Shown piece after piece: positions 58,285-61,568 of a DNA stretch of 64,000 nt. The first letter of the stretch is position 1; each line of letters opens with the position of its first letter. This DNA is from Yersinia enterocolitica. GTDB lineage: Bacteria > Pseudomonadota > Gammaproteobacteria > Enterobacterales > Enterobacteriaceae. The notes beneath the pieces are model-generated. The model was not told the origin of the DNA, made no database searches, and saw only the letters and a list, made by a program, of their open reading frames with translations. The DNA is taken from positions 1,302,001 to 1,366,000 of the forward strand of contig NBTC02000002.1 of the NCBI GenBank assembly GCA_002082245.2, in the 5' to 3' direction. The translations under genes were made by a program, and so were the position numbers.

Positions 58285-58295
58285 GATACGTGGTG

Positions 58296-58733
58296 GTGGA
58301 AAGACTACAGACCAATTTGGACCAGCAACTGGAACTTCTCGAGTCACTGACGACTGTGGTAGCACAAGAGCAGCAATTACTCTGCTCCGGTCGGATTCAA
58401 GGTGTCGTGCTGCAAGGTGTGACGGAACAAAAAAGTTCAATACTGGCCACCTTGGCTTATCTGGATCAAACCCGGCTCACCACCGAAATTGCGGCCAATA
58501 TACAGGCGCCTTATAGCGAGATTCAAGAGTTGGCAATACGTTGGCAACGTATCTTGCAGTTGGCTGAGAACCTTCAGTACAGTAATTTGCACAATGGATT
58601 ATTGCTACAACAGCATATTGAGCATAATACTCAGGCGCTGGCAGTATTGAATACCCGCCACGGCCAGTCACTATACGGGCCAGATGGTCATTCTAAAGGT
58701 GCCAGTCTACTGGGCCGCAAGATCGGTATTTAA
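58296..58733 (+). CDS. flgN: FlgK/FlgL export chaperone FlgN
   Basis: FlgN carries FlgK and FlgL to the export gate and in relatives aids flgM translation. It is about 145 residues, helical, with LDQQLELLESLTTVVAQEQQ and the C-terminal LAVLNTRHGQSLYGPDGHSK. The start region reads GTGGTGGTG at 58290-58298; AGGA at 58283-58286 favours the second or third GTG. The third gives MERLQ and is used here, but the choice is uncertain by up to two residues. The 18-bp repeats lie immediately upstream. Confidence 0.93.
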   Translation: MERLQTNLDQQLELLESLTTVVAQEQQLLCSGRIQGVVLQGVTEQKSSILATLAYLDQTRLTTEIAANIQAPYSEIQELAIRWQRILQLAENLQYSNLHNGLLLQQHIEHNTQALAVLNTRHGQSLYGPDGHSKGASLLGRKIGI

Positions 58734-58744
58734 AACCTCATCCC

Positions 58745-58785
58745 TACGGATATAAACCGCCGCTCAGTCGAGGCTTATATCCGTA
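58745..58785. repeat. hairpin after flgN
   Basis: TACGGATATAA pairs with TTATATCCGTA, an 11-bp perfect stem with a 19-base loop, 12 bp after the flgN stop. It probably forms the 3' end of the flgMN transcript although no T-run follows. Confidence 0.65.
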
Positions 58786-58878
58786 CCGTTCCTCCGCGTT
58801 AATTGACTCGTGCCCTCAATGCTTTCTACCTACTTAAAAAATGAGTTTTCCTGTTTTTCTCCGATGTTTTAGTCTGCT

Positions 58879-58904
58879 GAAACTGAGCAAATGTGCTTAG
58901 TTTC
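58879..58904 (+). promoter_or_regulatory. hairpin abutting the ribosome binding site of the 52-residue peptide gene
   Basis: GAAACTGAGCA-AATG-TGCTTAGTTTC forms an 11-bp stem (one G-U pair in RNA) that ends on the base before AAGGAGGAG (58905-58913). It could control access to the ribosome binding site, or be a terminator-like element of the upstream transcript. Confidence 0.6.
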
Positions 58905-58915
58905 AAGGAGGAGAT

Positions 58916-59074
58916 ATGAAAAAAAGGTATGTAAGTCTGCTACTGGGGTGTTTTTTTTGCGGGGCGGCAGCACTGTCAATGAGTCAGGCAGTGCAGGCCG
59001 TTGAGACCAACAATCAGCTCGAACATCCGGTCTATTTCTGTATGACTTGCTATTACCCCTTCGTCTGGTTTTAG
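58916..59074 (+). CDS. 52-residue exported Cys-containing peptide, unrecognised
   Basis: The gene lies between flgN and flhE and is too short for standard callers. It has an excellent ribosome binding site (AAGGAGGAG, 2 bp before ATG). The product has a textbook signal peptide: MKKRYVSLLLGCFFCGAAAL followed by SMSQAVQA, with cleavage likely after QAVQA. The mature part would be about 24 residues (beginning VETNNQLEHPVYF) with a CMTC pair and an aromatic-rich end (YYPFVWF). The first Cys in LLLGC might instead act as a lipobox, but the residues after it are hydrophobic, which argues against it. The stop overlaps the flhE stop tail-to-tail by four bases. I do not recognise the family. Confidence 0.72.
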   Translation: MKKRYVSLLLGCFFCGAAALSMSQAVQAVETNNQLEHPVYFCMTCYYPFVWF

Positions 59075-59490
59075 CGATAATTGACCAGCACCTGATTGCT
59101 GATCACTTGCAACGGCGGGTTGACTCGGCCTTTACCGGCAATAAAGTAAACAAACCTCAGTTGAGTTGCTGCCGCCTCTCCCGCCAGTCCCCGGCTCTGT
59201 CCGCTGCCACCCTCAAGTGGCATACAACGGGTCGGGGTGCATAATTTAACCTGTAACCCCTCTGGCGCTGTCGACATTAATTGGTAGCGCCAGCCAACCG
59301 ACACGATGCGCGCATTTTCCTGCGCCAGCGCTACCGGTGGTTGCAGTACCGCCGACGAGGTAGCTACCCCGCGCAAACCCTGCGTAACCCCAATATCGTC
59401 CGCCACCCAAGTGCCTGAAGCGACAGCATTCAACGGCAATACACATACCGGAAGTAGTGTAGCCAACATTAGGGAGAGACGAGTTAGCAT
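59071..59490 (-). CDS. flhE: flagellar protein FlhE
   Basis: FlhE is a periplasmic protein of enterobacterial flagella, reported to limit proton leakage through the export gate. It has 139 residues with a signal peptide (LSLMLATLLPVCVLPLNAVA), then GTWVADDIGVTQGLRGVATS and a Cys pair in KLCTPTRCMPL. The ATG at 59490 overlaps the flhA stop (TGATG-type). It is last in flhBAE and is convergent with the 52-residue peptide gene. Confidence 0.95.
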   Translation of the reverse strand: MLTRLSLMLATLLPVCVLPLNAVASGTWVADDIGVTQGLRGVATSSAVLQPPVALAQENARIVSVGWRYQLMSTAPEGLQVKLCTPTRCMPLEGGSGQSRGLAGEAAATQLRFVYFIAGKGRVNPPLQVISNQVLVNYR

Positions 59491-61568
59491 CAAGCAGCTC
59501 CTATCGTTGATGTCATACGGATCTGGCGATTATCGCCAATTTCCAGATTAGACAGCACCACCATCTGCGGCAAACTGCGGCGCAAGAAACGGGCTAAAAG
59601 TGCCCGCAGTGCATGGTTAACCAGCAACACCGGCGGTGCACCCAGCATCTCCTGACGTTGCAGCGCTTGTTTAGATTGATCCAACAAACGGTCAGCCAGA
59701 CCTGGCTCCAGACCACCCCCACCTTGCAGCGCCTGTAGTAACAAACGCTCTAATGCCGCATCCAGCCCGATGACCTGAATCTCGCCGGTTCCTGGGAACC
59801 ATTGTTGCGCAATGGAGCGCCCTAACGCCACTCGAACTACCGCTGTTAATTCGTAAGGGTCGGTCTGGTTTGGCGCATGTTCAGCCAGTGTCTCGATAAT
59901 GGTGCGCATATCGCGAATGGATACCCGCTCCATTAGTAGATTTTGCAGTACTTTATGCAGCGTGGTTAAGGTGACGACGCCGGGAATGAAGTCTTCCGTC
60001 AGCTTCGGCATCTCTTGCGCAACTCTGTCCAGCAATTGCTGGGTTTCCTGGCGGCCAAACAGTTCGCTAGCAAATTGGCTAATCAGATGGTTTAGATGGG
60101 TCGCCACGACGGTGCTGGCCTCAACCACGGTAAAACCTTGAATCTGCGCCTGCTCACGTAATGCACTTTCAATCCAAACCGCCGCCAATCCGAAGGCGGG
60201 ATCATGGGTGGCCTCACCGGGTAACGAGCCAACCGCATTGCCGGGGTTAATGGCTAACCAACGGCCGGGATGAGCTTCGCCACTGCCAATCTCGACCCCT
60301 TTCATTAATATCCGATAGTTTGCTGGCGGCAGTTCCAGATTATCTCTGATATGCACCACCGGTGGCAGGTATCCCATCTCTTGAGCAAACTTTTTACGAA
60401 TACTGCGAATCCGCCCCAACAGCTCACCATTTTGCTGGAAATCCACCATCGGAATCAGGCGATACCCCACCTCCATACCCAGCGGATCTTCCAGTTGAAC
60501 ATCTGACCAGGTCGCTTCAGTGGCTTGTTGCTGGTCTTGCACCACCGGTGATTCTGCCACCATCGGTTGCTTCATTTGCTTACCACGTAAGCGCCAGGCT
60601 AATGCCAACAGTGCGCTGGTGAATAGCAGGAAGACAAAGTTAGGCATGCCAGGCACCATCCCCAGTAACCCGAGGACACTGGCACTCAGCACCATCACGC
60701 GAGGGTTATTAAATAGCTGGGTGACCATTTGCTGGCCAACATCCTGGTCGGTACTGACGCGGGTCACGATAACGCCCGCCGCCGTCGAGATAACCAATGC
60801 CGGGATTTGTGCTACCAAGCCGTCACCAATCGTCAGCAAGGTATAGGTTTCTGCTGCATGGCCCACCGCCATGTCGTGCTGAAGCACCCCGACCAGTAAG
60901 CCGCCGACCACGTTAATCACCATGATCAGTAACCCGGCAACCGCATCACCACGAACAAATTTACTGGCCCCATCCATTGAACCGTAGAAGTCAGCTTCTT
61001 GCGTAACATCGGAACGGCGTTTTTTGGCTTCGTCTTCACCAATCAAGCCGGCATTTAAGTCGGCATCGATCGCCATCTGCTTACCGGGCATACCATCCAG
61101 AACAAAGCGCGCCCCCACTTCGGCAATACGCCCCGCCCCTTTGGTGATAACCATAAAGTTGATTATGACCAAAATAATAAAGACCACGATGCCGATGGCA
61201 AAGTTGCCACCAACCAGAAAGTGACCAAACGCTTCCACCACACGGCCCGCAGCCGCCGCACCGGTATGCCCATCCATCAGAATGATACGGGTGGAGGCGA
61301 CGTTTAGCGATAAACGCAACAGCGTTGAGAACAACAGAATGGTTGGGAAGGCGGCAAAATCCAGCGTGCGTTGGGTAAACATGGCAACCAACAGCACCAT
61401 AATGGACAGCGCGATATTAAAGGTAAACAGCAAATCAAGGATGAAGGGCGGCAGCGGCAGCACCATCATCGACAAGATCATCAGGATAAGAATTGGCCCG
61501 GCAAGGATTTGCCACTGCGTATCTTTAAAATTGCCCGGTAAACGTAGCAGGGCGGCCAAATTAGCCAT
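59490..61568 (-). CDS. flhA: export gate protein FlhA
   Basis: FlhA is the nonameric export gate with eight membrane helices and a large cytosolic domain that docks chaperone-substrate complexes. It has 692 residues; LLRLSLNVASTRIILMDGHT, VITKGAGRIAEVGARFVLDG and MPGKQMAIDADLNAGLI mark the family. Its start overlaps the flhB stop (TAATG-type), and its stop overlaps flhE. Confidence 0.98.
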   Translation of the reverse strand: MANLAALLRLPGNFKDTQWQILAGPILILMILSMMVLPLPPFILDLLFTFNIALSIMVLLVAMFTQRTLDFAAFPTILLFSTLLRLSLNVASTRIILMDGHTGAAAAGRVVEAFGHFLVGGNFAIGIVVFIILVIINFMVITKGAGRIAEVGARFVLDGMPGKQMAIDADLNAGLIGEDEAKKRRSDVTQEADFYGSMDGASKFVRGDAVAGLLIMVINVVGGLLVGVLQHDMAVGHAAETYTLLTIGDGLVAQIPALVISTAAGVIVTRVSTDQDVGQQMVTQLFNNPRVMVLSASVLGLLGMVPGMPNFVFLLFTSALLALAWRLRGKQMKQPMVAESPVVQDQQQATEATWSDVQLEDPLGMEVGYRLIPMVDFQQNGELLGRIRSIRKKFAQEMGYLPPVVHIRDNLELPPANYRILMKGVEIGSGEAHPGRWLAINPGNAVGSLPGEATHDPAFGLAAVWIESALREQAQIQGFTVVEASTVVATHLNHLISQFASELFGRQETQQLLDRVAQEMPKLTEDFIPGVVTLTTLHKVLQNLLMERVSIRDMRTIIETLAEHAPNQTDPYELTAVVRVALGRSIAQQWFPGTGEIQVIGLDAALERLLLQALQGGGGLEPGLADRLLDQSKQALQRQEMLGAPPVLLVNHALRALLARFLRRSLPQMVVLSNLEIGDNRQIRMTSTIGAA

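Follow-up and report, generated by a model that had tools for sequence, protein, structure and literature searches.

A Yersinia-specific gene beside flhE encodes a probably exported two-cysteine peptide and carries a selected RNA hairpin in its leader

MgrB is a tiny membrane peptide that has two periplasmic cysteines and controls a sensor kinase, and passages of PMC8404706 describe its activity as dependent on these two cysteines and on the periplasmic redox state. A portion of PMC11247099 presents FlhE as a chaperone that counters periplasmic flagella; neither "Yersinia" nor "disulfide" appears in the main text of that paper. At the RNA level, a hairpin at the 5′ end hinders RppH and can make an mRNA more stable according to excerpts of PMC3997798, whose reference list names papers on the 5′ stem-loops of the ompA and papA mRNAs. 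Here, we compared these systems with a 52-codon frame located between flgN and flhE in a 64,000-nucleotide stretch of Yersinia enterocolitica DNA (hereafter, the window).

The encoded peptide resembled MgrB (PF13998; a 47-aa membrane inhibitor of PhoQ, as given in the same passages of PMC8404706) in its size, N-terminal hydrophobic helix, two cysteines of predicted periplasmic location, and aromatic end. However, the cysteines of MgrB are C28 and C39, whereas those of the peptide form CxxC or CC, so that the MgrB spacing was not observed. Since the PF13998 profile also gave no match in any of the 21 orthologous peptides described below, membership of the MgrB family was rejected. MgrB itself was found above the cut-off elsewhere in the genome in 24 of 25 Yersinia genomes; the sole exception, G024 (inferred to be Y. 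vastinensis), may reflect a loss or an assembly gap. FlhE shares with the peptide a neighbouring gene position, the same predicted compartment, and a cysteine pair, but it also occurs without the peptide, and the likeness is drawn from locus and compartment rather than from sequence similarity. In the leader of the peptide gene, as in those of ompA and papA (titles cited in PMC3997798), a hairpin precedes the ribosome binding site and would lie close to the 5′ end; the leader differs from them in that its 5′ position is predicted from sequence and in that Rfam gave no family match to it (the best, MIR394 with E 7.2, was a chance one).

The peptide gene occupies positions 58916..59074 on the plus strand, with the ATG at 58916 and the stop codon TAG at 59072–59074. 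Its upstream neighbour is flgN (58290..58733, plus strand; Pfam PF05130, E 1.2e-24), and the convergent flhE (59071..59493, minus strand; Pfam PF06366, E 9.1e-32) lies downstream. The two convergent genes overlap by four bases, as had been noted, and the flhE stop codon (59071–59073) lies inside this overlap. After flgN, an imperfect inverted repeat, GGATATAAACC... / ...GGCTTATATCC, was present at 58751–58787; it has no T run and was not listed by the terminator scan.

A search of the 25 Yersinia genomes yielded matches in 22, and in 21 of them (L001–L021) the orthologue adjoined flhE; the 22nd match (L022, in G008) was spurious. An overlap of 4–14 bases with flhE was observed in 15 of the 20 measured loci and a distance of 11–18 bases in the other 5, L017 being excluded. 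The gene flgN lay within the 1.5-kb flank in 15 of the 21 loci and not in the other six. In the three of these six that were tested (L003, L011, and L021), an inverse-autotransporter gene of the invasin family (PF11924) was found upstream of and divergent from the peptide gene, and the two genes have a common upstream region. The coordinates of the invasin-family genes were L003:1-1128 (−), L011:1-1233 (−), L021:2003-3127 (+), and L031:2647-3420 (+). The last of these is in G022 (inferred to be Y. similis), in which the invasin-family gene stood at the junction and the peptide gene was missing. Three further genomes (G008, G016, and G021) kept flgN and flhE and had no peptide gene. In G021, a hydrophobic frame of 42–44 aa reaching the flhE stop was rejected as an orthologue: it lies within a pyrimidine-rich run and has neither a cysteine nor a leader match. 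Since 4 of the 25 genomes lack the gene, the role of the peptide is dispensable.

The original prediction had named an unconserved frame and frequent stops as what would speak against a gene; the opposite was observed. In 10 disjoint species pairs, pooled pN/pS was 0.29 in the peptide frame, whereas the two remaining forward frames gave 1.07 and 1.55. The pairs differed in the peptide frame by 118.7 synonymous and 134.3 nonsynonymous changes, and stop-holding codon pairs numbered 0 there versus 39 and 18 in the other two forward frames. L007 was in no pair, the number of orthologues being odd. Change relative to the available sites was therefore mostly synonymous in the peptide frame alone among the three forward frames, and constraint was alike in the signal part (pN/pS 0.28) and the mature part (0.32). 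On the basis of the orthologue beside flhE in 21 of 25 genomes and this frame-specific pattern, we concluded that the 52-codon frame is a genuine protein-coding gene.

Among the genomes and proteins searched, the gene was found in Yersinia only and once per genome. The 392 genomes of the family contained nothing convincing outside Yersinia: 26 genomes had a match at E ≤0.05, including 22 from other genera (best E 0.003), and these other-genus matches were only partial, a number of them containing stops or falling within long frames. An alignment search of approximately 5.8 billion proteins gave 16 relatives of 47–66 aa; the 13 with a named source were all from Yersinia and called hypothetical or uncharacterised. 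They included Y. intermedia P0003 and Y. enterocolitica CH49_1985 (P0015), the latter identical to the L021 product. The description of the gene as unannotated thus stood as far as a functional name is concerned, but its relatives are already listed as proteins. These relatives are listed without function, and literature searches gave no paper on them; the main text of a survey of small peptides in Y. pestis (PMC8563848) contains neither "flagell" nor "flhE". No Pfam or NCBIfam family was above the cut-off for the window peptide, its weak matches to SNAPC3 and Lar being far below the cut-offs. At E 0.01, none of the 21 members matched a Pfam family, and the best hit of a PDB profile search had E 0.98. 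A match to TraU, seen in one of the 21 members only (E 0.0019), was dismissed. A tree was built from 26 rows covering the 1.2 kb up to and including flhE. Its best topology needed two changes, such as a gain plus a loss, and the fork placing G022 inside the carriers had weak support (81/51); the peptide gene may have a single origin.

The small peptide with a signal-peptide-like start and a mature cysteine pair that had been foreseen for the window was recovered in all 21 orthologues. Each has a basic start followed by a hydrophobic stretch, and inspection of the alignment rows showed that 20 of the 21 have small residues at −3 and −1 of the aligned site. Judged by these three features of Sec-exported small proteins, the peptide is probably exported. 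In the window, the signal-peptide-like part corresponds to 58916–58999 and the mature part to 59000–59071, the cleavage site being placed by the −3/−1 rule only. This rule was broken in L007 alone. Within Y. aleksiciae, the end of the signal peptide reads ...AAPVAE... or ...AAPAAE... (L007 versus P0005), and so the exception varies within the species. The mature part would comprise 21–25 residues in 19 of 21 peptides, 28 in L016, and 40 in L017. AlphaFold2 proposed a single helix over residues 2–32 at low confidence (mean pLDDT 63), and for this reason an uncleaved membrane anchor instead of a cleaved signal peptide is possible. A lipoprotein was ruled out, because no lipobox cysteine was kept where the signal sequence ends; the cysteine in column 15 was absent in several of the 21 rows.

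Exactly two cysteines were present in the mature part of all 21 peptides (codons 59039–59041 and 59048–59050 in the window). They are arranged as CxxC in 18 and are adjacent (CC) in L018, L019, and L021, and the 21 rows also share an invariant proline followed by an aromatic residue. Since histidine near the cysteines is not constant, a metal site was rejected, and the two cysteines are probably joined as a disulfide.

Directly upstream of the gene, the predicted hairpin of 11 base pairs was found at 58879..58904 on the plus strand. It consists of GAAACTGAGCA-AATG-TGCTTAGTTTC, includes one G-U pair, and ends directly before AAGGAGG. The strong Shine-Dalgarno sequence claimed for this gene, AAGGAGGAG, was confirmed at 58905..58913, and its columns are conserved in the leader alignment. 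The hairpin belongs to the minimum free energy fold of 58850–58960; judged from this one sequence, however, the fold stands out only slightly from shuffled controls (z −1.97; an equally good fold in 9 of 200), and hence our claim for it rests on the comparison across species. In the alignment of 21 leaders from 21 species, the conserved core of eight pairs (58881–58888 with 58895–58902) had 164 of 168 cells in standard pairs, and sliding the partners by 1–3 columns lowered the pairing to 8–57%. Four of the eight core pairs were changed on both sides in some species. None of 500 shuffles, which ignore relatedness, reached the covariation score of the core; in weaker measures, the double-change pairs were reached by 31 and the further pair types by 142 of 500. 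The non-Watson-Crick cells of the core comprised 30 G-U, 0 A-C, and 4 other. The presence of G-U and the absence of A-C, which would be G-U in the antisense strand, indicate selection on the sense RNA rather than on a DNA palindrome. Therefore, we concluded that the hairpin is real and selected in the sense-strand RNA.

A covariance model was built from 17 of the 21 leaders, the four with a longer Shine-Dalgarno spacer being excluded. It matched the junction in 20 of the 25 Yersinia genomes, including three of the four excluded leaders, and missed L006 (G014); it gave no match in any of the four Yersinia genomes without the peptide gene. Among 99 genomes of the family it had three matches, two in Yersinia and one in G038, the last rejected for the lack of an ATG at its end. 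One leader of this kind was present per genome where it was found. Six weak second matches occurred in the genus: one was in G011, and five (L130–L134, from five Yersinia genomes) represented one orthologous Shine-Dalgarno stretch, followed by a gene that we take to be dhaM, and were judged to be due to chance.

Upstream of the hairpin, TAGTCT at 58870..58875 (plus strand) is a putative −10 promoter element. Its T, A, and last T (alignment columns 30, 31, and 35) are invariant in all 21 leaders, and the conserved stem follows after five or six bases with no gaps in between. This fixed, ungapped distance suggests that the hairpin forms the 5′ end of the peptide mRNA. No good −35 element was found, and the consensus promoter scan did not list the TAGTCT site; "flhE" was not found in passages of a paper on Y. 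enterocolitica start sites (PMC6478967). If TA...T is the −10 element, the leaders would be 34–41 nt long and start at or near the first base of the stem; this start follows from a rule and may be off by some bases, and in the window it would fall inside the 11-pair stem. In these predicted transcripts the hairpin was part of the best fold in 20 of 21 cases at 25 °C, the exception being L005.

Taken as a whole, the explanation that we prefer, to which we give about an even chance, is a Yersinia-specific, Sec-exported envelope peptide with two cysteines, its own promoter, a hairpin leader that stabilises the 5′ end, and an MgrB-like mode of action. A promoter of its own would probably drive the gene and yield a short mRNA, of which the conserved hairpin would be the 5′ end. 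There, the hairpin would slow decay that depends on the 5′ end and leave the strong Shine-Dalgarno sequence free. After Sec export, the C-terminal 21–25 residues (in 19 of 21 species) with the two cysteines would reach the periplasm, where the disulfide would probably form. By analogy, the peptide would most likely modulate an envelope protein as a small accessory factor, acting in the manner of MgrB but unrelated to it.

A flagellar accessory role, in which FlhE or the export apparatus would be the periplasmic partner of the peptide, accords with the gene being beside flhE in all 21 loci and between flgN and flhE in 15 of them, and both proteins would be periplasmic; we nevertheless consider it unlikely. 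The FlhE C-x4-C pair was present in all 26 members of the tree set, among them the four Yersinia genomes that lack the peptide as well as a member of another genus, and four further genera without the peptide had C-x4-C in three cases and C-x5-C in one. The FlhE pair therefore does not track the peptide, and the proposed partnership through the two cysteine pairs lost its specific basis. The promoter evidence also argues against this role. The consensus for sigma-28, the sigma factor of late flagellar genes, is TAAA-N15-GCCGATAA. No such promoter was found in the 21 leaders, whose best sites were no better than those of 24–100% of shuffles, whereas the flgM control was found, with a score of 10 of 12; a TCCGATGT-like block considered as a sigma-28 lead was rejected by the same scan. 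Moreover, of the six loci with no flgN close by, three have an invasin-family gene in between.

The hairpin might instead be a regulatory switch, such as an RNA thermometer or a target of an sRNA or protein, rather than a stabiliser. It does touch the Shine-Dalgarno sequence, and if the transcript in the window starts further up, a UUUUUCUCC on its upstream side could pair with that sequence. However, the conserved stem excludes the Shine-Dalgarno sequence, and inspection of the leader alignment by eye showed that the upstream partner is not kept across species. Predicted openness of the Shine-Dalgarno sequence ranged from about 0.3 to 0.98 across leaders, and at 25 and 37 °C it revealed neither a common lid nor a common switch. 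The loop was variable while the stem was kept, which fits a role of the structure itself better than one of a partner binding the loop. A switch is thus improbable. The original prediction of a hairpin on the ribosome binding site under RNA-structure control holds in that a selected hairpin abuts this site; the hairpin does not cover it, and the leaders have no common occluding fold that would support a lid.

Similarly doubtful is a small membrane-active peptide, either type I toxin-like or secreted and bacteriocin-like. Its hydrophobic N-terminal helix, aromatic end, two cysteines, and structured leader would suit such a product, and since the terminator scan found no terminator-like site in window positions 58600–59600, convergent flhE transcripts could act as antisense. 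Against this, 20 of the 21 peptides retain the signal-peptidase-like site, the mature part is constrained like the rest, and the G-U bias of the leader marks the sense RNA as the selected one; furthermore, no exporter or immunity gene was noticed at the junction in the window. Heat-stable enterotoxin-type peptides have six mature cysteines, unlike the two found here in all 21 peptides. The suggestion of a toxin or signal peptide thus gained no support. Finally, that the frame is a chance one across a conserved regulatory stretch, as its absence outside Yersinia might suggest, is hardly credible in view of the in-frame constraint without stops and the neutral-like ratios and many stops of the two other forward frames.

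In a bolder version of the preferred reading, to which we give only a slim chance, the peptide would be the founding member of a group of Yersinia-specific, redox-sensitive periplasmic regulator peptides that inform a sensor kinase or export machine of oxidation in the envelope. Its dose would be set by its 5′ hairpin leader, and its gene would lie at a junction of flagellar genes and, in some species, a divergent invasin-family gene. In those species, studies of either promoter should consider the other. More broadly, the locus adds a family of small, probably exported proteins outside Pfam and NCBIfam coverage in a much-studied genus, and its roughly 200 bases bear distinct marks of selection on the protein and on the RNA. 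This uncharacterised, genus-specific, probably exported small protein with its selected RNA leader, on which literature searches gave no paper, offers a test case for the origin of genus-specific small envelope proteins and for their tuning by a 5′ hairpin leader.
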